A DNA stretch of 64,000 nt, taken from NCBI RefSeq assembly GCF_019972295.1, contig NZ_BLJA01000001.1, positions 2,174,158 to 2,238,157 of the forward strand, written 5' to 3'. The notes beneath the pieces were generated by a model, which was given only the letters and a program-made list of their open reading frames with translations, made no database searches and was not told where the DNA came from. The position numbers and the translations under genes were made by a program. The DNA comes from Geobacter sp. AOG2 (GTDB lineage Bacteria > Desulfobacterota > Desulfuromonadia > Geobacterales > Pseudopelobacteraceae). Within the stretch, counting starts at the first letter, position 1. Each line of letters starts with the position of its first letter. This document shows positions 12,220 to 33,037 of this stretch, in pieces.

Positions 12220-14157
12220 ATGTCCAAGACCACCAAGCAGTTCCAGACCGAGGTCCAGCAGCTTCTCGACCTGGTCATCCACTCCCTCTATTCCAACCGC
12301 GACATCTTTCTGCGGGAGCTGATCTCCAACGCATCGGACGCCATCGACAAGATCCGCTTCGAGGCCCACTCCAACGAAACCATACTGGAAGGCAACAGCG
12401 ACTGGAAGATCAAACTCATCCCCGATAAGGACGCAGGCACCCTCACCATCCGCGACAACGGCATCGGCATGACCATGGCCGAGGTCGAGGAGAACATCGG
12501 CACCATCGCCCGCTCCGGCACCAAGGCCTTCATGCAGACCCTCAAGGAGAAGGCGTCCAGCGACAACCCGGAACTGATCGGCCAGTTCGGCGTCGGCTTT
12601 TACGCCTCGTTCATGGTTGCGGACAAGGTCACGCTCTTCACGCGCACGGCCGGGTCCATCGAGGCGGGATGCTGCTGGGAGTCCACCGGCGACGGTTCCT
12701 ATACCATCGAGGAATGCAGCCGGGAGCGGCGCGGCACCGAGATCATCCTGCATCTGAAAGAAGAATTCAAAGAATACCTGGACGAGTGGAAGATCCGCTC
12801 CATCGTGAAGAAATATTCGGATTACATCCAGTACCCCGTGGTGATGGACGTCACCCGCACCGAAGTGCCCAAGGGGGTGGACGGCAAGGAGATCGAAGGG
12901 GCCGGCACCATCGAGAAGACGGAGGAGGAAACCCTCAACTCCATGAAGGCCATCTGGGCGCGTTCCAAGAGCGATGTGACCGAAGAGGAGTACAACGAGT
13001 TCTACAAACATATCTCCCACGACTTCGACGCCCCCTTCCGCACCATCCACTTCTCGGCCGAGGGCACCAGCGAGTTCAAGGCCCTGGTATACCTGCCGGC
13101 CCGCAAGCCGTTCGACATGTTCTTCGCCGACCGCAAAAAGGGGCTGCAACTCTATGTCAAACGGGTGTTCATCACCGACAAGTGCGAAGAGCTGATCCCC
13201 GACTACCTGCGCTTCGTCAAAGGGGTGGTGGATTCCTCCGACCTGCCGCTCAACGTCTCCCGCGAACTCCTGCAGGAGGACGCCCAGATCAGGCGCATCC
13301 AGAAGAACCTGGTCGGCAAGATCCTCTCCACCCTGGCCGAGGTGAAGGAGAAAAACGCCGAAGAGTATGTGACGTTCTGGAAGGAATTCGGCCAGGTCAT
13401 CAAGGAAGGGGTCCATTTCGATTTTGCCAATAAGGAAAAACTCCAGGATCTGATCCTGTTCGAAAGCACCGGGACCGAAAACGGCTCCTTCGTGTCGCTG
13501 AAAGAGTATGTGGCGCGCATGCCCGAGGCCCAGAAGGAGATCTACTTCATCACCGGCACCAGTCGCGAGGCCCTGGAGCAGTCTCCGCACCTGGAGGTGT
13601 TCCGGTCAAAGGGTTTCGAGGTTCTTTTCATGACCGACCCGGTGGACGAGTGGGTGGTGCAGGCGCTTACCGAGTACGACGGCAAACAGCTCAAAGCGGT
13701 GGACCGGGGCGACATCAGCATCGACAGCGAAGAGGAGAAGAAAGAGAAGGAGAAAAAACGGGAAGAGGCCCAAAAGGAGTTCTCCGACCTGATCTCGCTC
13801 ATGACGGAACGGCTGAAGGACAAGGTCAAGGAGGTGCGCTTTTCCAACCGCCTGACCGACAGCGCCTGCTGCCTGGTTGCCGACGAACACGGCATGAACG
13901 CCAATATGGAACGCATCATGAAGGCCCTCAACCAGAGTGTGCCCGAATCCAAACGCATCCTGGAACTGAACCCGGACCACCCGATCCTCAAGGTCATGGC
14001 CGACCTCCACACGGCCGACAAGGACGCCCCGGCCCTTGGCGATTATGCGGACCTGCTCTACGATCAAGCCCTCCTGACCGAGGGTTCGCCCATCAAGGAC
14101 CCGTTGCGTTTCACCAGGATGGTCAGCGAGTTGATGGTCAAAGCTGCCGCGAAATAA
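12220..14157 (+). CDS. htpG: Molecular chaperone HtpG (Hsp90)
   Basis: A 645-residue bacterial Hsp90. The GHKL ATPase motifs are in the expected N-terminal places: [12 protein letters not shown] near residue 34, IRDNGIGM near 83, and GQFGVGFYA near 126. The middle domain holds the VKRVFITD and LPLNVSRE segments, and a lysine/glutamate-rich linker near residue 510 precedes the C-terminal dimerisation domain. It is a cytoplasmic ATP-dependent folding factor. An ATG preceded by AAAGGAGAG marks the start. No heat-shock operator is recognisable in the upstream gap. A strong hairpin follows at 14167-14191. Confidence 0.96.
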
Positions 14158-14164
14158 CCGACTC

Positions 14165-14202
14165 AAACTCCCCCGGCCCTGCCGGGGGAGTCCTGCCTTT
14201 TC
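14165..14202 (+). terminator. Terminator-like hairpin after htpG
   Basis: A perfect 10-bp stem, ACTCCCCCGG and CCGGGGGAGT, with a 5-base loop begins nine bases after the htpG stop. The following tract is CCTGCCTTTT, so the T run is short and offset. It is probably the end of the htpG transcript, though not a textbook intrinsic terminator. Confidence 0.65.
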
Positions 14203-14365
14203 CCCGCCCCCGCAATTAAAAGTGCAAATATTTCTACAATTGTGAGACCATTGTGCCGATATTAATTAAAGGAACGATCGCTTCCTGAAATTCCCGGCCG
14301 CAGCTACGAGAAAACGTTTACACGTCAAATAACCGGAAGTCACTCTAGCGAACGGAGTCACATTC

Positions 14366-15802
14366 ATGATGGGCGACGCGTCTTCAGGCGAAGAGGTGAA
14401 GGAAAGCATCCCGGGCAAGGAGTTCAAGAAGCTCGGCTATAGTCTGTTCATTGCCGTAGCCGCCGACAAGCTGGATTGCCGGTGCAGCTATGTGCCCCGC
14501 CAGCAGGGCGCCATGATGACCAGGGACGAGCTCAACGGCTATCTTGCCGCAGCCGGGGTGAAGGAGGGCCTTGACGAAGACGCCGTCACCACCTTTGCGG
14601 TCAATGCCGCAGCCGGCCAATCGTTGAGCAACGTGGTGGTGGCAACCGGCACTCCGGCAGTCAACGGCATCGACGCCTGGCTCTCCTATACGGCGCAACC
14701 ATCCGTCCTGGTTCAGGCAGAGGGCGACGATGACGCCGACATCGACCTGCACCAGGTTCAGACCTTCATCAACGTCGACGCGGGGGACGAAATAGCCCGC
14801 ATCGTCCCTCCCAAACCGGGCGTCTCCGGCAGGGGGGTGACCGGCGAAACCCTTCCCGCCCAGCCCGGCAAGCCCCTATCCCTCAAGATCGGCAAAAACA
14901 TCACCATCGAAGATAATGGAGAGCGGCTTGCCGCCACTGCCGCGGGCAGGGTGTGCCTGGCCTCCGGGGAGATCTCCGTCGAGGAAGAGTACGTCGTGTC
15001 CGGCGATGTCAATTTCAGGGTCGGTTCGATCGTCTTCAACGGCGTGGTGGAGGTGCGGGGCGACGTGCTGGACGATTTCAGCGTCAGCGCCACCAAGGGG
15101 CTGCGCGTCAACGGGAATATCGGGAACTGCACCATAACCAGCGGCGGAGACATTACCTTGTGCGGCATGGACGGCCAGGGCAAGGGGTCCATCGTGTGCG
15201 GCGGCAGCATCAGGGCGCAGTTTCTCCATGACTGCACCATCGAATGCGCAGGCGATGTCATCGTCGAGGTGGAGATGCATAACTGCACCGTCAGGACGCT
15301 GGGCCGGATCGTGGTCAACAAAGGGGCCATTGCCGGAGGTTCATGCATTGCGCTGGGGGGGATTGAGGCCAAAAAGATCGGATCGCTGGCCTCGGTCAGG
15401 ACAAAGCTCACCGTTGGCGTCGATTATCGCGACGCCGAGGAACTGGAACGGTTGATGGACGAACTGGCCGACAACCACCAGAAGATCGGCCAGACATCAT
15501 CGCTCAAGGAGATCGAGGAGCTGCGGCAAACCCGCGCAACCCTGACCGACCGGGTCATGGCCCTCCGCTCGAAGGTCGATGAACGGGCCAACCCCAAGGT
15601 CAATGTCAAGGGAACGCTCTACGACAACACCCTCCTGGTCATCGGGTCCCAGAACGAAGAGGTCAAGGACCCCCATGACGGACCGCTCAGCGCGAGCGAA
15701 AACACCATTGAGGGGGGTCTTCGCTATCTTTCCCTGACCAGCCTGGATGTCAAGGCCGCCGATATCGAGAAGGCCTTTATTCTCGAATATCAGAAAGGAT
15801 AG
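14366..15802 (+). CDS. FapA-family (DUF342) polymer-like protein
   Basis: A 478-residue protein of the DUF342 family, now called flagellar assembly protein A or FapA. The centre (about residues 195-340) is a run of short beta repeats with alternating Gly, Ile and Val, as expected of a right-handed beta-helix. After it comes a predicted coiled coil (about 350-420) rich in Glu, Leu and Arg. The KPGVSGRGVTGE segment before the helix is typical. No signal peptide is seen. The family is linked to surface structures or polar proteins but its function is unproven. Start at one of two adjacent ATG codons with GGAG upstream. Confidence 0.8.
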   Translation: MMGDASSGEEVKESIPGKEFKKLGYSLFIAVAADKLDCRCSYVPRQQGAMMTRDELNGYLAAAGVKEGLDEDAVTTFAVNAAAGQSLSNVVVATGTPAVNGIDAWLSYTAQPSVLVQAEGDDDADIDLHQVQTFINVDAGDEIARIVPPKPGVSGRGVTGETLPAQPGKPLSLKIGKNITIEDNGERLAATAAGRVCLASGEISVEEEYVVSGDVNFRVGSIVFNGVVEVRGDVLDDFSVSATKGLRVNGNIGNCTITSGGDITLCGMDGQGKGSIVCGGSIRAQFLHDCTIECAGDVIVEVEMHNCTVRTLGRIVVNKGAIAGGSCIALGGIEAKKIGSLASVRTKLTVGVDYRDAEELERLMDELADNHQKIGQTSSLKEIEELRQTRATLTDRVMALRSKVDERANPKVNVKGTLYDNTLLVIGSQNEEVKDPHDGPLSASENTIEGGLRYLSLTSLDVKAADIEKAFILEYQKG

Positions 15803-15863
15803 CTGCCAGCTAGAACGAGGCGGATCGCCACGAACAATCTTCTAGCAGGTTGTTCAAAATTTC

Positions 15864-16064
15864 AGGTTGTTCAAAAATAGTCAGATCGGCGCACCCGGAG
15901 AAGGCCCTGAGGAGGCGTAGCAGCGCTACGTCGCACGAAAGGGACTTCGAGGAAGGCGGCGTATAATTATGCGTGAGCATAATTATCGGTGACGGAGCGA
16001 CAGCGTAGTCATCCCGTTTAGCGGGACGCCGATAGGCGCTAAGATGGCTGTTTTTCAACGACCT
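15864..16064 (+). repeat. Dispersed inverted-repeat element, long form, copy C
   Basis: Second 201-bp full-length copy, same orientation and length as copy A. A 17-bp partial duplicate of the left end (AGGTTGTTCAAAATTTC) sits directly before it at 15847-15863. Its right end lies one base from the stop codon of the truncated redoxin-TPR gene at 16066. The ATAATTATGC hairpin and the CCCGTTTAGCGGG hairpin of the 80-bp central block are preserved. Confidence 0.85.
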
Positions 16065-16065
16065 G

Positions 16066-17199
16066 CTAATGGATCTGTAAAATGGTTTCCAACGCCTTCC
16101 TATAGGCGGCCGCGGCCTCCGGCAACCTCTTCCGCTCTTCGAACACCCGCCCCTTGTACACATACAGGTTATAGTCCAGCGGGTTGATCTTCTCCGCCTC
16201 GTCGAACATCTTCAACGCCTGATCCAGCTTATCCTGCCTGCCGTAGGCAAAACCGGCATAATAGTAACACGGCGTGTAGGATTCATCCGCCTTGAAGGCG
16301 CTCTCCAGCAAGCTCTGACCCTCCGCCAGACGATTGTCCTCGAACAATAAAAGCGCCGATTCGCACAGGGCGATCACATGGGTCGGCTCCTTCGCGAGGG
16401 CTTCCCGGAACTGCTCCCCGGCCAGCGCCTTGTCGCCCCGCTGCACATAGAACCTGCCCAGGCTGATATGGGGCAGGACGAAGTTCGGGTCGGCCTCGAT
16501 GGCCTTTTTGAACCACATCTCCGCGGTCTCGGCCATGCGCCCCGACTTCAGGGTGTTCCGGCCCATATTGTAAAACCGCAGCGCGCTCTTGGCGGGCTGG
16601 TACCCCTTCTTCTCCGCCATGGCCGGTTTCGTGCCCTCGATGGAGGCGGTCAGAAAGTCTGCCATCTCCTCGGCACCCACCAGGGGATACCCCGAAAGCT
16701 CGTACTTTATGACCCGCTCCCGGTCCACGATGACCGTCGAAGGCAGGGCAATGATGCCCACATCGTGAAAGTAGTCGAGGCCGTTGTCCACGAGAACGGG
16801 ATAGGTCAGCTTGAGCCGCTCGACCGTCGAACGGATCCTGGCCAGGTCGGCGTCCGAAATCTTCTGGCCGTCCGCATTGATGGCCACCACCGCCAACCCC
16901 TTGTCCCGGTACTTTTGATACAGGGTCTGCATCCGGGCCAGGGCCTTTTCCGATTTCCGGTCCCAGGTGGACCAGACCAGGAGCACGGTCAACTTATCCC
17001 CTTTCAGGTCGGCAAACGATTTATTTTCGCCGGAGACGAGCGGCAGGGAGAAGCCGGGGGCCTCCATGCCGACCTGAAGCTGCTGCAACGTGGCGGCCGC
17101 CGGGGTGAACAGGAAAATGCCGTAGGCGGTAAAAAGCACCGCCAGCAGTGCGGTTCTTTGCGAAAATCGAGACCATAACGAGACTTTTTTTCGGGACAT
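16066..17199 (-). CDS. Redoxin-like TPR protein lacking catalytic cysteines, shortened copy
   Basis: A 377-residue exported protein: an N-terminal signal segment (about 1-35), a TlpA/AhpC-type thioredoxin fold (about 40-185), then at least three TPR units. In the usual WCxxC active site the sequence reads WSTWDRKSEK, so both cysteines are replaced (D80, S83), while the cis-proline segment ALPSTVIVD is kept. It is therefore unlikely to be a thiol oxidoreductase. From about residue 35 to 365 it is almost identical to the protein encoded at 17255-18625, but it ends early in ILQIH, next to a 201-bp repeat. GGAAGG precedes the ATG. Confidence 0.85.
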   Translation of the reverse strand: MSRKKVSLWSRFSQRTALLAVLFTAYGIFLFTPAAATLQQLQVGMEAPGFSLPLVSGENKSFADLKGDKLTVLLVWSTWDRKSEKALARMQTLYQKYRDKGLAVVAINADGQKISDADLARIRSTVERLKLTYPVLVDNGLDYFHDVGIIALPSTVIVDRERVIKYELSGYPLVGAEEMADFLTASIEGTKPAMAEKKGYQPAKSALRFYNMGRNTLKSGRMAETAEMWFKKAIEADPNFVLPHISLGRFYVQRGDKALAGEQFREALAKEPTHVIALCESALLLFEDNRLAEGQSLLESAFKADESYTPCYYYAGFAYGRQDKLDQALKMFDEAEKINPLDYNLYVYKGRVFEERKRLPEAAAAYRKALETILQIH

Positions 17200-17254
17200 T
17201 ATACCTTCCAGTATGCGACCGGCGCATGAGTGTTATGACGACGCAGGGCCGACG

Positions 17255-18625
17255 TTACCGTCTCCCCTGCCGGTACTTGGCGATCCCCTCTTTATACTCG
17301 GCCAGCGCCTCTTCGAGCCGGCCCGATCTTTCGTACACACGTCCCAGTTCATGGTGGGCCATGACCGGATTGGGATTGCCGGCCAGGGCCGCCCGCAGTG
17401 CCTGTTCGGCCCCCGTGAGGTTCCCGGCGCGGGCCAGGACGATCCCCTCTTCCGTCCTGCCGTCGGGAACGCGCTGTTTGCGCTTCAAGGTTTCGTCGGT
17501 CTGGAAGACGGTTTCCAACGCCTTCCCATAGGCGGCCGCGGCCTCCGGCAACCTCTTCCGCTCTTCGAACACCCGCCCCTTGTACACATACAGGTTATAG
17601 TCCAGCGGGTTGATCTTCTCCGCCTCGTCGAACATCTTCAACGCCTGATCGAGCTTATCCTGCCTGCCGTAGGCAAAACCGGCATAATAGTAACACGGCG
17701 TGTAGGATTCATCCGCCTTGAAGGCGCTCTCCAGCAAGCTCTGACCTTCCGCCAGACGATTGTCCTCGAACAATAAAAGCGCCGATTCGCACAGGGCGAT
17801 CACATGGGTCGGCTCCTTCGCGAGGGCTTCCCGGAACTGCTCCCCGGCCAGCGCCTTGTCGCCCCGCTGCACATAGAACCTGCCCAGGCTGATATGGGGC
17901 AGGACGAAGTTCGGGTCGGCCTCGATGGCCTTTTTGAACCACATCTCCGCGGTCTCGGCCATGCGCCCCGACTTCAGGGTGTTCCGGCCCATATTGTAAA
18001 ACCGCAGCGCGCTCTTGGCGGGCTGATACCCCTTCTTCTCCGCCATGGCCGGTTTCGTGCCCTCGATGGAGGCGGTCAGAAAGTCCGCCATCTCCTCGGC
18101 ACCCACCAGGGGATACCCCGAAAGCTCGTACTTTATGACCCGCTCCCGGTCCACGATGACCGTCGAAGGCAGGGCAATGATGCCCACATCGTGAAAGTAG
18201 CTAAGGCCGTTGTCCACGAGAACGGGATAGGTCAGCTTGAGCCGCTCCACCGTCGAACGGATCCTGGCCAGGTCGGCGTCGGCGTTTCCCTGCACATCCG
18301 CCTCGATGGCCACCACCGCCAGCCCCTTGTCCCGGTACGTTTGATACAGGGTCTGCATCCGGGCCAGGGCCTTTTCCGATTTCCGGTCCCAGGTGGACCA
18401 GACCAGGAGCACGGTCAGCTTATCCCCTTTCAGGTCGGCAAACGATTTCCGTTCGCCGGAGACGAGCGGCAGGGAGAAGCCGGGGGCCTCCATGCCGACC
18501 TGAAGCTGCTGCAACGTGGCGTCGGCCGAGGTGAACGGAAAAACGCCCAAGAGTGCGAGCAGAGCGCCCAGGAGCGCGGTCCTTCTCGAGAACATCCGGG
18601 AAAATGGGGAAATATGCCTGGTCAT
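17255..18625 (-). CDS. Redoxin-like TPR protein lacking catalytic cysteines, full-length copy
   Basis: A 456-residue paralogue of the protein at 16066-17199, with the same cysteine-free thioredoxin fold (WSTWDRKS at 76-83) and a full TPR tail including a final EEGIVLARAGNL...ALAEYKEGIAKYRQGRR-type unit. That tail is shared with the small TPR protein encoded just upstream. The signal peptides of the two redoxin copies differ strongly while the bodies are nearly identical, suggesting recent duplication or gene conversion. The ATG at 18625 has AGAAGGA upstream; a TTG at 18640 would place the ribosome site inside the gene. It is probably periplasmic and part of the cytochrome operon. Confidence 0.85.
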   Translation of the reverse strand: MTRHISPFSRMFSRRTALLGALLALLGVFPFTSADATLQQLQVGMEAPGFSLPLVSGERKSFADLKGDKLTVLLVWSTWDRKSEKALARMQTLYQTYRDKGLAVVAIEADVQGNADADLARIRSTVERLKLTYPVLVDNGLSYFHDVGIIALPSTVIVDRERVIKYELSGYPLVGAEEMADFLTASIEGTKPAMAEKKGYQPAKSALRFYNMGRNTLKSGRMAETAEMWFKKAIEADPNFVLPHISLGRFYVQRGDKALAGEQFREALAKEPTHVIALCESALLLFEDNRLAEGQSLLESAFKADESYTPCYYYAGFAYGRQDKLDQALKMFDEAEKINPLDYNLYVYKGRVFEERKRLPEAAAAYGKALETVFQTDETLKRKQRVPDGRTEEGIVLARAGNLTGAEQALRAALAGNPNPVMAHHELGRVYERSGRLEEALAEYKEGIAKYRQGRR

Positions 18626-18674
18626 CGTTCCTTCTAACAATCGTCGTGGCGGGAGGGAGCGGCGGGATCGGACG

Positions 18675-19241
18675 TTACTTTCTTCCCTGCTGATGTTTGG
18701 CTATCCCCTCTTTATACTCGGCCAGGGCCTTCTCGAGATCGCCGGATTTTTCGTACACAAACCCCAGCTCATAGTGTGTTCTGACCGGATTCGGATTACG
18801 GGCGAGGGCCGTTTTCAACACCTGTTCGGCCTCCTTGAGGTTCCCGGTGCGGGCCAGGACGATCCCCTCCCCCGTCATGGCGGCATGGGAGTAGGGGTTG
18901 CGTTTCAGGGCATCGTCGAAGGCGGCTTTCGCCTCCGTCAGCGCCCCGGCGTTCAGGTACAGATACCCGAGGCGCACATACAGGAGGGAATCGTCCGGGG
19001 CCTGCGCGATCTGCTCGCGCAGGCCCCGGATCTCCTTCTCTTCCGGGTTTGCGGCGGCCGGAGCGGACACGGGAGCCGGCTGCTTTTCCGGGACGGCCGC
19101 CTGGGGGGCCTCCCCGTCCGCCGCCCATGATGCGGGGCAGGCGAGCACGGCGCTCATACCGGCCAGCGCGCACCAAAGCACGGCCGTGCGCAAACGGGAT
19201 ACGGCCGGTGCCGTCATGGCGTCGATACGGCCCGCCGCCAT
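18675..19241 (-). CDS. Exported TPR-repeat protein
   Basis: A 188-residue protein with a signal peptide ending near ASWAA, a Pro/Ala-rich linker, then two to three TPR units (LGYLYLNAGALTEAKAAFDDAL, GEGIVLARTGNLKEAEQVL, LGFVYEKSGDLEKALAEY in pieces). The last units are closely related to the C-terminus of the redoxin-TPR protein encoded next. Its start overlaps the cytochrome stop in the form TAATG, so it is translationally coupled to the cytochrome. A likely role is scaffolding in the periplasm, possibly around the cytochrome, but this is inferred from position only. A second ATG at 19217 is an alternative start. Confidence 0.82.
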   Translation of the reverse strand: MAAGRIDAMTAPAVSRLRTAVLWCALAGMSAVLACPASWAADGEAPQAAVPEKQPAPVSAPAAANPEEKEIRGLREQIAQAPDDSLLYVRLGYLYLNAGALTEAKAAFDDALKRNPYSHAAMTGEGIVLARTGNLKEAEQVLKTALARNPNPVRTHYELGFVYEKSGDLEKALAEYKEGIAKHQQGRK

Positions 19242-20599
19242 TACTGATTCTTTACCGCATGGTTCCGGTTATAGGAAAACTGCTTGTGGCACCCCGGCAG
19301 ACAACTGCCGCCGTCGCTGGTCTTCACGAAGCCGACCGGCAGCTTCCAGGCGTTGAAGGGAACCGCATCCCGGATATGGCGCGGATTGTTCGTCGCGTGG
19401 GCATCGTGGCAGGCCCGGCAGGTGCGACCCTTTACCGTCTTGTTGACATGGACGAAATGCAGATTCTGATCCCCGTTCCTGAAGGCGGTCAATTTCGTCG
19501 TATGTTCGTCCTCGGCTAGGGACTTTTCGTGGCACATGAAGCACAGCTTGTAGTTTTCCGCGTTGTAGCCGGCATAAAAAACCGCGGGGAAATTTTCGCG
19601 CAGGATCCTGAAATTCTTGGAGCCGTGGGTATTATGGCATCCCGAGCAATCCTTTTGCTTGATGGGGCCATGATATTCGGTATTGCTATCCAGCACGGCT
19701 TTCATATTTGCCACGCGCGTGGCGCCGGCCCCATACTCCTTGTTATGGCAGCTCAGGCACAGGTCCGCCGGTTGCATGGTCAACTGCTTGACGTAATTGG
19801 ACGCGTGGGGATCATGGCAGGCAAGGCATTTCTTCTCCGTCGCCAGCCCCTTGTGTTTCACGGTGGCCGAGTTGATCTCCATCTGTTTTTCCTTGTGACA
19901 GGTAAGGCAGAGATCCTCCGAGCCGTCGGCTTTCAGGTTGTACCGGTATTCGCCGTTATGGGGGTCGTGACACTCGGTGCAGGACTTCTGGACCGGAGCG
20001 TGGGTGAACTTCTTGCTCTTGAACGCCTCGGCCTTGTCGGCATGGCATTCGAAACAGACCTGGTTGACGGGCGCCCGCAACAACCGGGGGTAATCCCCCT
20101 GATGCACGGCGTGGCAGGTGGTGCAGCTCCCCACGGCGACAGGGCCGTGGACGAACTTGCCCTTCATGATGGACCGGTCATGGCACTTGAAGCAGAGTTC
20201 CGCACCGGCTGCGCGCAACTGATACTTGTTGGGGGACTGGTGGGAATCGTGGCAGGTGAAGCATTTCCCCTGCTTGACCGGCGCATGGACATATTTATGG
20301 GTATCGAGCCGTTCGTGGCACTCGGCGCACAGCTTGCCCGTGTCCCGTATCGCTTCGAACGAATGCTTTCCCGTGGGCTTGTGGCAGAAGGTGCAGTCGC
20401 CGGTGGCCGCGGGACCGTGCACGTACTTCTCGGTACCCATCTTGCCGTGGCAGTCGGCGGTAACGCAGGACGCTTTCAGGGGGGACGATTGACCGGATAA
20501 GGCAAAGGCGTTACCGGCGGAGCCGGAAAACGAAAGAAGTTGCATACCGGCGGCGATTACAAACAGAACTAGAGCAACACATGGCATTTTCCCGTGCAC
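19241..20599 (-). CDS. Periplasmic multihaem c-type cytochrome (about 15 haem sites)
   Basis: A 452-residue exported protein with 13 CxxCH haem-attachment motifs plus a CVTADCH (CX4CH) site near the N-terminus and a CLPGCH (CX3CH) site at the C-terminus. The motifs come mainly in pairs separated by 15-25 residues, as in doubled-CXXCH cytochromes of metal-reducing bacteria. Additional histidines in HxP-type segments (KYVHGP, KYVHAP, KFVHGP, KFTHAP) recur and could be distal ligands. The GTG at 20599 has GAGGGGGG about nine bases upstream and gives a normal signal peptide. The electron-transfer partner is unknown. The cytochrome leads an operon with TPR and redoxin-like genes. Confidence 0.92.
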   Translation of the reverse strand: MHGKMPCVALVLFVIAAGMQLLSFSGSAGNAFALSGQSSPLKASCVTADCHGKMGTEKYVHGPAATGDCTFCHKPTGKHSFEAIRDTGKLCAECHERLDTHKYVHAPVKQGKCFTCHDSHQSPNKYQLRAAGAELCFKCHDRSIMKGKFVHGPVAVGSCTTCHAVHQGDYPRLLRAPVNQVCFECHADKAEAFKSKKFTHAPVQKSCTECHDPHNGEYRYNLKADGSEDLCLTCHKEKQMEINSATVKHKGLATEKKCLACHDPHASNYVKQLTMQPADLCLSCHNKEYGAGATRVANMKAVLDSNTEYHGPIKQKDCSGCHNTHGSKNFRILRENFPAVFYAGYNAENYKLCFMCHEKSLAEDEHTTKLTAFRNGDQNLHFVHVNKTVKGRTCRACHDAHATNNPRHIRDAVPFNAWKLPVGFVKTSDGGSCLPGCHKQFSYNRNHAVKNQ

Positions 20600-20650
20600 G
20601 GTACAAGCCCCCCTCAAAAAAATACAAAATCATAATATTGCTACACGGTT

Positions 20651-20679
20651 TTCAAACCATGTATACGGCGATTTGTCAA
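20651..20679 (-). promoter_or_regulatory. Putative promoter of the cytochrome operon
   Basis: On the minus strand TTGACA (20674-20679) is followed after 17 bases by TTTGAA (20651-20656), a perfect -35 with a weak -10. The -10 region lies inside a palindrome-like CACGGTTTTCAAACCATG (20644-20661), and a related CCGGTTTTTTAAACCA sits upstream at 20695-20710. Regulator binding over the -10 and upstream of the -35 is plausible. Confidence 0.45.
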
Positions 20680-20759
20680 GCGTTTTCGTACAATCCGGTT
20701 TTTTAAACCATTATAATATAGAACAAATTTCCGAGCGAACCGGTTCCCGGCCCTGTCGA

Positions 20760-21377
20760 TCAATAGGCATAAAGGACCGACATGTTTGCACGTTCTACGG
20801 CATTCGTCTCTTTTTGCGCCTGCACCTCCATGCGGTACACATAGGGAATGTGCTGCGGGGTGATGACGGACAGGGATTCGGCAACGCCGGCGCCTTCCAG
20901 CTGAAGTCCGCTGGTGTCCGTATTGCCGAAGACGGTATCCACGATTTGCGAGTACACCGTATATCTTTGCCCCCCCGTCGCCTGAAGCTGCATGGTCATG
21001 TCCGGCGTCGACTTGGGGTCCGGGTACCGGCTACAGGCGGGATCCCAGTCCGAGGTGCCCTTGCTCAGTTTGTCTTGCAGACATGTCTGTGTCGCCCTGA
21101 CCTCGAGGTTGACTCCGGCAAAACTGGATTGGAGGTCAGTGACAAGAGTGGCGGATGCATAGTTTTTGAGGACCGTGGGCAAAATCTCCTTCATGACGAT
21201 GTCCGTGCCGCCGTACGACGCCTCCAACGCCGTTTTATAGCGCTTCGACGACCCGGTTTGCTGGATGTTCTGGCTAATCATGTACATGACCGCCATGACG
21301 ATGGTCAGTGAAATCAAGGTCATGAAAAGGGCTGTGACCAAAGCGATCCCGTCTTGTTTTGCGAGCAAGCGATTCAT
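20760..21377 (-). CDS. pilX: PilX-like type IV pilus accessory protein
   Basis: A 205-residue protein with the N-terminus KQDGIALVTALFMTLISLTIV, which is the pattern of PilX proteins (a hydrophobic helix starting GIALV...ALF). The helix is followed by a globular domain with two cysteines. PilX-type minor pilins are thought to prime pilus assembly together with PilV, PilW and FimT. It lies 18 bp after pilW on the same strand, with GGGGAAA before its ATG, and is the last gene of the cluster. A perfect GAACCGGTTC palindrome follows near 20740. Confidence 0.8.
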   Translation of the reverse strand: MNRLLAKQDGIALVTALFMTLISLTIVMAVMYMISQNIQQTGSSKRYKTALEASYGGTDIVMKEILPTVLKNYASATLVTDLQSSFAGVNLEVRATQTCLQDKLSKGTSDWDPACSRYPDPKSTPDMTMQLQATGGQRYTVYSQIVDTVFGNTDTSGLQLEGAGVAESLSVITPQHIPYVYRMEVQAQKETNAVERANMSVLYAY

Positions 21378-31400: not shown

Positions 31401-31521
31401 AGGTTGTTGAAAAACAGCCGTCTCTCCGCCGTCCTCGAAAGCCCTTTCGTGCGGCGTAGCGCTGCTACGCCTCCTCAGGGCCTTCTCCGGGTGCGAAGAT
31501 TCGACTATTTTTGAACAACCT
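31401..31521 (-). repeat. Dispersed inverted-repeat element, short form, copy D
   Basis: A second 121-bp short copy, in the same orientation as copy B, lying between a histidine kinase and its response regulator. An extra partial right end (TTTTTCAACAACCTGC) follows directly at 31525-31540, and the kinase reading frame runs into it: its last codons and TGA stop lie within this repeat end. Both terminal repeats and the central GGCGTAGCGCTGCTACGCC dyad are intact. Confidence 0.85.
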
Positions 31522-31528
31522 GGGTTTT

Positions 31529-33037
31529 TCAACAACCTGCTTGGGCGGGTAGCCATAAAGTGAAGCAACTTCCCGTACCCGGCACGCTCTTGACGGTAAT
31601 CCTGCCCCCGAAGGCCTCGATGATGCGCGCCGATATGGCGAGCCCCAGGCCGGTTCCCTTTCCGGGCGGCTTGGTGGTGAAAAAAGGATCGAAGATGCGC
31701 GAAAGGTCCTCTTCGGGTATCCCCCCGCCGCTGTCCATCACATCGAGGCGCAGGCAGTCGGCCGGCTGGCGAAGGAAGACCGGGCAGGCCTCCTGCCTGA
31801 CCCGCAGGGCCAGCTTGCCGCCACCCTGCATGGCGTCGCGGCTGTTGAGAATCAGATTGATCAGCACCTGTTGCAGTTGGTGGGGATCGACCAGCGCCGG
31901 CGGAAGATGATCGTCCTTCTGGGTGGTGACCTTGATATGCTTGAACACCCCCTGCTGCGCAAGCAGTTCGAGCGTCTCGGCAATGAGGCGGTCCAGGTCG
32001 CACGCCTCCACGGCGCTGCCCCTGGGCCGGGCGAAATCCAGAAGCCCCCGCACGATACGGTCGATACGGCTGCAATCGCCCGAGATGCGCCGCGCGTAAT
32101 CCTGAATGACGGGATTGTCCGGCTGTTCGCCGGAAAGCAGTTCGGCGTAGCCCATGATGGATGCCAAAGGCGTACCGACCTCGTGGGCCATGCCGGCCGC
32201 CAGAAGCCCGATGGAGGCCATCTTCTCGGTGTGAACCGCCTCTTCCCGCGCCTGATGCAACTCGGCGTTGGCCCTTTCCAGGGCCGCCACATGTTCGGTG
32301 ACCTGCTGTTCCTTGCCGAGCAGGGAACGGGACATCTCGTTGAAGGATTCGGCCAGGCGGACAAGTTCCGCGCTGCCGGAGACATGCACCTGCTGGCCGT
32401 ACTGGCCGCCGGTGATCTTTCCGGTGGCGGTCAGGAGGCGGTTGATGGGCTTTACCACGATCTGCGACAGGATATAGGAGCCGAATCCGAGAAGGAGAAT
32501 GAAGTCGATGACGAAATAGGCCATGAAGAGCTTTTGCGAACGATGCAGGCGCTCATTCTCCGCGGCGAGCGTCAGCACGATCCCCGCCCTGCCCACGGCG
32601 ACGCCGTTGCGTATCACGGGAATGACGCGGGCGATAGCCGCCCCGCCCTGCAGGACCACGCCGCGCTCCTGGGATTGGGGGGAACCGCTGAAGGGCAGGT
32701 ACACATCCGCCGACTCGTTGCCGACGGTAAAGATGATCTTCCCGTTGGCATCGAGGAGGCTCAAGCGCGCGAATGCGCCCTCATCGGCCAGTTTTTGGGC
32801 GAATACGGCCGGAGAGGACATGGGTTGGATCATTCCCTCGGGAAAGGTCGGCACCACATCGGGCAATTGGGCGGTAAAGACGCTCAGGAGCGTCCGGCCG
32901 TACTCGCCCTTCTGGGAATAGAGATCGTTGGCGGAGGTTTTGAAGGCAAGCGTGCTGAAAAGCAGCCACGCCAGGAGCAACATGCAGGTCAGAAAGGCCA
33001 GGATGGATGCCGTCAGGCTGAGCCGGACCGTAGCCAC
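31529..33037 (-). CDS. Sensor histidine kinase, NtrB-type
   Basis: A 502-residue membrane kinase: a transmembrane segment (about 7-30), a periplasmic sensing region (about 31-165), a second transmembrane segment (about 165-190), HAMP (about 190-245), a coiled coil, an H-box with MAHEVGTPLASIMGY, then the ATPase with NLILNSRDAM (N box), DSGGGI (G1) and GTGLGLAI (G2). The GTG at 33037 starts two bases after the pilD stop and has AGGGGA upstream. The final residues (AGC) and the TGA stop are encoded by the end of a repeat element, so the natural C-terminus may have been altered. It probably phosphorylates the downstream NtrC-type regulator. Confidence 0.9.
   Translation of the reverse strand: MATVRLSLTASILAFLTCMLLLAWLLFSTLAFKTSANDLYSQKGEYGRTLLSVFTAQLPDVVPTFPEGMIQPMSSPAVFAQKLADEGAFARLSLLDANGKIIFTVGNESADVYLPFSGSPQSQERGVVLQGGAAIARVIPVIRNGVAVGRAGIVLTLAAENERLHRSQKLFMAYFVIDFILLLGFGSYILSQIVVKPINRLLTATGKITGGQYGQQVHVSGSAELVRLAESFNEMSRSLLGKEQQVTEHVAALERANAELHQAREEAVHTEKMASIGLLAAGMAHEVGTPLASIMGYAELLSGEQPDNPVIQDYARRISGDCSRIDRIVRGLLDFARPRGSAVEACDLDRLIAETLELLAQQGVFKHIKVTTQKDDHLPPALVDPHQLQQVLINLILNSRDAMQGGGKLALRVRQEACPVFLRQPADCLRLDVMDSGGGIPEEDLSRIFDPFFTTKPPGKGTGLGLAISARIIEAFGGRITVKSVPGTGSCFTLWLPAQAGC

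Follow-up and report, generated by a model that had tools for sequence, protein, structure and literature searches.

The locus analyzed here raises the question of how two adjacent genes come to be nearly identical along most of their length and different at both ends, and whether such a pair is young or old. In the window (the whole 64,000-nucleotide stretch of Geobacter sp. AOG2 DNA under study), gene 1 and gene 2 lie in tandem and share about 1 kb at 97% identity, just as the first-pass annotation had described; over codons 38–371 they are 97.3% identical at the DNA level, with 27 differences in 1002 nt. The reported divergence of the signal peptides and 3′ ends is equally evident, since codons 1–37 are only 59.5% identical and similarity fades past the motif KALET. 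From this pattern the first-pass annotation had drawn two readings, recent duplication or ongoing gene conversion, and had taken gene 1 to be cut at a repeat that marks the breakpoint. The observation is real and the conversion half of that interpretation stands, whereas truncation of gene 1, the repeat as breakpoint and the recency of the duplication fail. In their place we propose, with a probability of roughly 0.88, an account in which an ancestral operon underwent one duplication, followed by repeated conversion with a loop that stayed copy-specific, and by a later insertion of a MITE-like element.

Arrangement of the locus and its counterparts in relatives

The window genome is a single 3.92-Mb contig. 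Read along the minus strand, the locus consists of a cytochrome gene, gene 3, gene 2 and gene 1, beyond which lie a 226-bp repeat and, at 14366–15802, a convergent gene of the FapA family (Table 1). The first-pass annotation had missed a further repeat unit, in which the end of gene 2 (17251–17462) matches the end of gene 3 (18671–18882) at 80%. No RNA family reached the gathering threshold within 14000–21000, and no account of this gene pair, or of such a repeat in Geobacter or Oryzomonas, stood out in the portions of the literature available to us.

Table 1. Features of the locus, in window coordinates.
Feature	Coordinates	Strand	Remarks
Gene 1, redoxin (ResA-like)-TPR protein, 377 aa	16066–17199	-	Ends in ETILQIH and stop; ending matched in O. 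japonica, G002, G004, the palsa MAG and G005
Gene 2, redoxin-TPR/gene 3 chimera, 456 aa	17255–18625	-	ATG at 18625; alternative upstream TTG at 18640 possible
Gene 3, TPR protein, 188 aa	18675–19241	-	3′ part is the source of the gene 2 tail
Gene 2 tail, codons 377–456	17258–17497	-	Gene 3-derived; only in the four pair-bearing genomes
Gene 3 segment, about residues 109–188	18678–18917	-	Source of the gene 2 tail
Gene 1 signal peptide, codons 1–35	17095–17199	-	Copy-specific, not homogenised
Gene 2 signal peptide, codons 1–35	18521–18625	-	Copy-specific, not homogenised
Gene 1 N-terminal tract, codons 36–107	16879–17094	-	Homogenised with gene 2
Gene 2 N-terminal tract, codons 36–107	18305–18520	-	Homogenised with gene 1
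Gene 1 island, codons 108–123	16831–16878	-	Ancestral-type loop NADGQKISDADLARIR; strong constraint
Gene 2 island, codons 108–123	18257–18304	-	Diverged loop; differences in the window only in codons 108–115
Gene 1 C-terminal tract, codons 124–371	16087–16830	-	Homogenised with gene 2
Gene 2 C-terminal tract, codons 124–371	17513–18256	-	Homogenised with gene 1
MITE-like repeat, 226 bp	15843–16068		TA at both ends; imperfect inverted ends (by eye); in the TA of the gene 1 TAG stop
Multihaem c-type cytochrome, 13 CXXCH	19241–20617	-	Paired CXXCH family; conserved upstream neighbour

We compared the locus across a genus sample of six genomes, made up of the window genome and five relatives: O. 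japonica, G002, G004, G005 and a palsa MAG. The order seen in the window (cytochrome, gene 3, long copy, short copy, FapA) recurs in O. japonica, G002 and G004. The palsa MAG contains gene 3 and a single short copy; in G005 the contig ends within the gene, and an orthologue of the cytochrome was not found in that genome. A single short copy following gene 3 and the cytochrome is likewise present at loci L044–L049, in G006 and on one G029 contig (63), where it should be noted that G011 and L045 are the same contig. Family-wide, 18 of 76 genomes match at E ≤ 1e-60, and an adjacent pair is found in four of the 76, all of them in the Oryzomonas-group genus; G029 has two copies as well, on separate contigs. 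Copy number in relatives, a comparison already suggested at first pass, is two in three other genomes of the genus and one in the palsa MAG and the outgroup loci. In a species tree whose columns are filled to only 20–21% for the outgroups and to about half for G005, the palsa MAG and G005 fall outside the four pair-bearing genomes (89/91), so that the single copy of the palsa MAG is more simply read as ancestral; it could also reflect assembly collapse or loss.

Some variants of the locus were seen along the way. A second, more distant redoxin-TPR gene lies at L099 (G029 contig 144), with no match to the cytochrome or to gene 3 in the 6 kb there, and the same genome also carries the standard locus. 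At L045 and the Desulfobulbales-type loci (L045–L049), a further multihaem cytochrome directly follows the redoxin-TPR gene, which is thus flanked by cytochromes on both sides. At residues 184–185, the long copy of G002 (L054) contains an ambiguous codon and is one codon short, possibly because of an assembly gap between near-identical copies.

Ancestral length of gene 1, the chimeric copy and the inserted repeat

In all six genus members, window included, gene 1 or its single-copy homologue ends in KALETIL(Q/G/R)IH, and the distant single copies at L044–L049 are 369–377 aa long with the same alignment end point. Since the ending of gene 1 is kept in the relatives but for one residue, the length of gene 1 is ancestral. 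A long copy, extended by a gene 3-like tail, occurs in the four genomes that also have the short form.

Past the body, gene 2 continues with gene 3-homologous sequence that runs from approximately DEALKR as far as GRK. The tail of the upstream neighbour is thus joined to the body at the spacing of the duplicated unit, as judged by offsets of 1426 bp for the body repeat and 1420 bp for the tail repeat. Gene 2 is the derived copy, composed of the body and the last ~80 codons of gene 3 and best explained by one tandem duplication, and the duplication breakpoint lies where the body of gene 2 gives way to the gene 3 tail. The last 65 codons of the gene 2 tail are 79.0% identical to gene 3 in the window, where no homogenisation between the two tails is seen. 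The corresponding tails in G004 are 92.8% alike, so some exchange between gene 2 and gene 3 is possible in that genome. The tail tree is mostly unresolved, with the tails of O. japonica and G002 grouping by paralogue, and a clade of all gene 2 tails is disfavoured (p = 0.014).

The repeat reported next to gene 1 is real and multi-copy, but its ends, as set from other copies with TA at both, are 15843 and 16068 and not 15864 and 16064. It gives 57 match rows in the window genome (40 of 157 candidates scored), and members of the family occur in all six genus genomes. The stop codon of gene 1, previously placed one base before the element, actually lies on the terminal TA of the element. With the element removed in silico, the junction reads CCAT-TAG-AAG, which agrees with the CAC-TAG-AA of O. 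japonica and G002; both of these have the empty site TAG-AA. Because removal restores the empty site of the relatives, the element must have entered the TA of the gene 1 stop, and the next base of the element remade TAG. What the joined flanks reproduce is hence an undisturbed stop codon, not the breakpoint that had been assigned to the repeat, and the element is later than, and unrelated to, the duplication. Correia-like MITEs duplicate a TA target. The element resembles them in being short, multi-copy and too short for a transposase, with inverted ends (by eye) and terminal TA on both sides, and relatives show a clean empty site for the window copy.

Thirty copies of the repeat were examined (L001–L010 and L124–L143; L141 is wrongly anchored and was kept in n), and their extrapolated ends carry TA on both sides in 11, on one side in 16 and on neither in 3. 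Frames of at least 60 codons, counted as open frames and not as annotated genes, stop on the terminal TA in 13 of the 30 copies, against a rough expectation of 8.7% for TA stops, although any TA that falls in frame becomes a stop through the base that follows it in the element; at 4 more copies they stop on a TGA two bases further. At L137 the gene frame has 218 codons in six of six genomes, so its stop is natural, and two other frames at repeat copies reach the last query residue in 6/6 and 5/6 genomes, their own included. The repeat is modular, as seen at L101–L120: a 146-bp form is without query positions 120–199 and others are without 67–113, and L102 resembles a nested or tandem pair of copies. 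Two further copies lie in the window, at about 2591–2792 and 31426–31541.

With these data in hand, two alternative accounts of the pair can be judged. Highly identical bodies are what one gene assembled twice would yield; misassembly is nevertheless very unlikely, as the ends differ, 18 of the 334 codons in 38–371 differ between genes 1 and 2 in the window, the same layout with differences of its own is present in three other genomes, and two of the assemblies (the window genome and G004) are single-contig. The idea that gene 1 was once long and was truncated by insertion of the repeat, which would then be the breakpoint, draws on the way in which gene 1 ends just at the border of the element, with its stop codon overlapping the terminal TA. 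We give it practically no credence: gene 1 has the same length in the three pair-bearing relatives, the palsa MAG and G005 end alike, and the element is at none of these five sites.

Homogenised tracts and the parts that escaped

The duplication predates the species split, as gene order, the chimeric tail and the copy-specific signal peptide are common to the four genomes. Counting synonymous differences along the copies, as had been suggested at first pass, shows that paralogues are closer than orthologues in all four pair-bearing genomes: over codons 117–371, dS is 0.03–0.08 within each genome versus 0.22–0.80 in ten between-genome comparisons. In the body tree, gene 1 and gene 2 of each genome pair up with a bootstrap of 100 in four of four cases, and AU tests reject both a clade of all gene 1 bodies (p = 5.4e-54) and one of all gene 2 bodies (p = 3.2e-46), whereas flank trees group by paralogue. 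The body, N-terminal-tract, signal-peptide and island trees contain 10 rows, namely the eight paired copies, the palsa copy and L044; the partial copy of G005 and the copies of G006, G011, G029 and L045–L049 were left out. There are 203 sites at which gene 1 equals gene 2 in every genome while the genomes differ, and 196 of them lie in codons 38–107 and 124–371. The results bear out the suggestion of ongoing gene conversion: the body is homogenised by concerted evolution, with gene conversion as the most likely mechanism. The duplication cannot be called recent, given that the pair is common to four genomes and that the tail, copied in the same event, is only 79% identical to its source, and the tail is consequently a better guide to the age of the pair than the body. 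What looks like a fresh duplicate can thus be an old pair whose age is legible only in the segments that conversion spared (here 79% identity for the tail and 97% for the body).

Homogenisation begins at codons 35–36, adjoining what we take, from an AxA motif, to be the likely signal-peptidase site. In the tree of the N-terminal tract (codons 38–107), the copies group by genome in the window genome (99/95), O. japonica (89/93) and G002 (89/91), with the O. japonica tract less alike (93.5% over codons 38–99). The same tree joins the palsa copy to the window pair (83/86), against the species tree, and support for palsa outside the pairs drops to 74/69 in the refined body tree.

At thirteen sites, gene 1 and gene 2 show a fixed difference in every one of the four genomes; eight of these sites are in the signal peptide, four in codons 108–123, one at codon 377 and none in the body. 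A dense run of differences begins at codon 108 in four of four genomes and ends at codon 115 in the window and at 121–123 in the others, with scattered differences nearby, including single ones at codons 100–102 in three of the four; in G004, 214 identical nt stand directly before the run. Out of 20000 permutations, 11 equalled the densest 16-codon span of differences for the window, and none did for O. japonica, G002 or G004. The island stands out least in the window, with 6 of 16 differing codons as opposed to 11–14 of 16 elsewhere; the densest 16-codon span of the window pair is 100–115, and the AU test on islands against a clade of the two window genes is weaker (p = 0.0198) than in the other three genomes. 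The island tree, built on 48 nt, has modest support, and several island and signal-peptide branches are under 80. Among orthologues, pN/pS of the loop is 0.04 for gene 1 and 0.56 for gene 2 (body, 0.19 and 0.21), which indicates that gene 1 retains the ancestral loop and that drift or adaptation has changed the loop of gene 2.

Based on these observations, we propose the following course of events. The ancestral operon would have comprised the cytochrome gene, a TPR gene (gene 3) and a redoxin-TPR gene (X). One tandem duplication, starting inside gene 3 and reaching the final codons of X, would have created the layout that the relatives share, with three products: (i) gene 3, (ii) the in-frame chimera gene 2, made of the X body and the gene 3 tail, and (iii) X itself, which is gene 1. 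Recombination, presumably gene conversion, has since repeatedly overwritten one body with the other, separately in four lineages, as the pattern of identity shows; the signal peptide and a loop that spans at most 16 codons escaped and stayed copy-specific, selection against overwriting being the likelier reason for the escape of the loop. Later, in the window lineage, the 226-bp element entered the TA of the gene 1 stop, its end restoring TAG, as the empty site of the relatives shows.

The bodies could also be kept alike by repeated unequal crossing-over, that is, triplication and contraction of the array, instead of non-reciprocal conversion. A direct tandem at a spacing of ~1.42 kb favours unequal exchange, and the single copy of the palsa MAG, which one partial tree puts beside the window pair, is as contraction would give. 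We nonetheless consider this improbable, because the copy number is two in all four pair-bearing genomes, the palsa MAG lies outside the four in the species tree with its single copy more simply ancestral, and codons 108–123 are copy-specific between homogenised sides in every one of the four, which would require more than one exchange each time. Homogenisation on both sides of the island favours non-reciprocal transfer, an exchange that we infer from its outcome. The island itself may be a neutral relic that had diverged far enough for heterology to stop the conversion tracts at its edges, with selection playing no part. The weak constraint on the gene 2 loop compared with that of gene 1 fits such a relic, as does the shortening of conversion tracts by active mismatch repair in the Salmonella tuf genes, described in the accessible part of PMC5485169. 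On the other hand, both sides of the island were homogenised separately in four lineages, with the dense run starting from codon 108 in each, G004 included, and the fitted processivity of 0.998 per nt for the tuf system (PMC5485169, same part) corresponds by arithmetic to ~500 nt, so tracts should often cross 48 bp. The relic is a possible but somewhat doubtful explanation. Our own preference, itself tentative, is that selection removes converted recombinants and so holds the loop (up to 16 codons) and the signal peptide apart, giving one scaffold body with two binding edges.

Predicted proteins and comparison with known systems

Both proteins look exported. The predicted fold consists of a thioredoxin-like domain and a TPR superhelix, in a model of mean pLDDT 79.0 and pTM 0.60 with values under 50 at residues 142–151 and 195–198. 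For the N-terminal domain there is a match to ResA (4nmu, E = 4.1e-17) in which WDRKS stands opposite WCKPC, and Foldseek gives TMt values of 0.70–0.75 for the ResA chains listed; the second structural comparison concerns mainly the TPR part. The curated cut-off of the ResA family NF002854 (170 bits) is missed by both gene 1 (84.8) and gene 2 (70.5). No CXXC occurs in the 10 redoxin-domain sequences that were pattern-tested, and cysteine positions reveal no cysteine pair in the redoxin domain of L045–L049. A single one of 15 sequences has any redoxin-domain cysteine (O. japonica gene 2, residue 115, within the loop).

In the alignment, codons 108–123 sit where ResA is five to six residues shorter, and in the predicted fold the loop comes after strand 102–108. 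Thioredoxin folds carry their active site at the edge where the loop after that strand lies. The loop would accordingly be located near the former active site, a placement that, given the middling structure model, is suggested by fold topology and the ResA alignment. A CXXC-less ResA-like domain, the TPRs and the adjoining cytochrome gene hint at a role in cytochrome maturation, and, judging from domains and neighbours, genes 1 and 2 probably encode non-redox TPR chaperones or scaffolds for this process. If selection does keep the copies apart, the pair would represent two cytochrome-maturation factors of different specificity whose shared part is kept common by conversion. The loop points to the protein region in which the distinction between the two copies may lie. 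With its four species, single-copy relative, chimeric partner and sharply delimited copy-specific loop, the set offers a compact natural test of the balance between selection and conversion in bacteria.

Three known systems bear comparison with the locus. The ResA/TlpA thiol-disulfide oxidoreductases are similar to the N-terminal domain in fold and sequence, but the domain here has neither of the CXXC cysteines, D and S standing in their places in the window, and leads into a TPR array. At the junction of a head-to-tail duplication, two neighbouring reading frames may be fused into a chimeric gene. Gene 2 is of this general kind, in that a head-to-tail junction joins neighbouring frames, and differs from it in that the fusion is common to four genomes and joins TPR repeats in frame. 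With respect to concerted evolution, the locus is a clear, well-bounded instance of something already known, and its puzzling part is the protected loop. The accessible part of PMC6053082 gives 26 recurrent cases of prokaryotic duplicates under concerted evolution. As in these and in the tuf genes, to the extent that the accessible parts of the two sources describe them (PMC5485169, PMC6053082), paralogues within a genome are repeatedly closer than orthologues and conversion tracts can be recognized; unlike them, the pair described here is a direct tandem in which one copy is chimeric and each copy keeps its own version of an internal loop (up to 16 codons).
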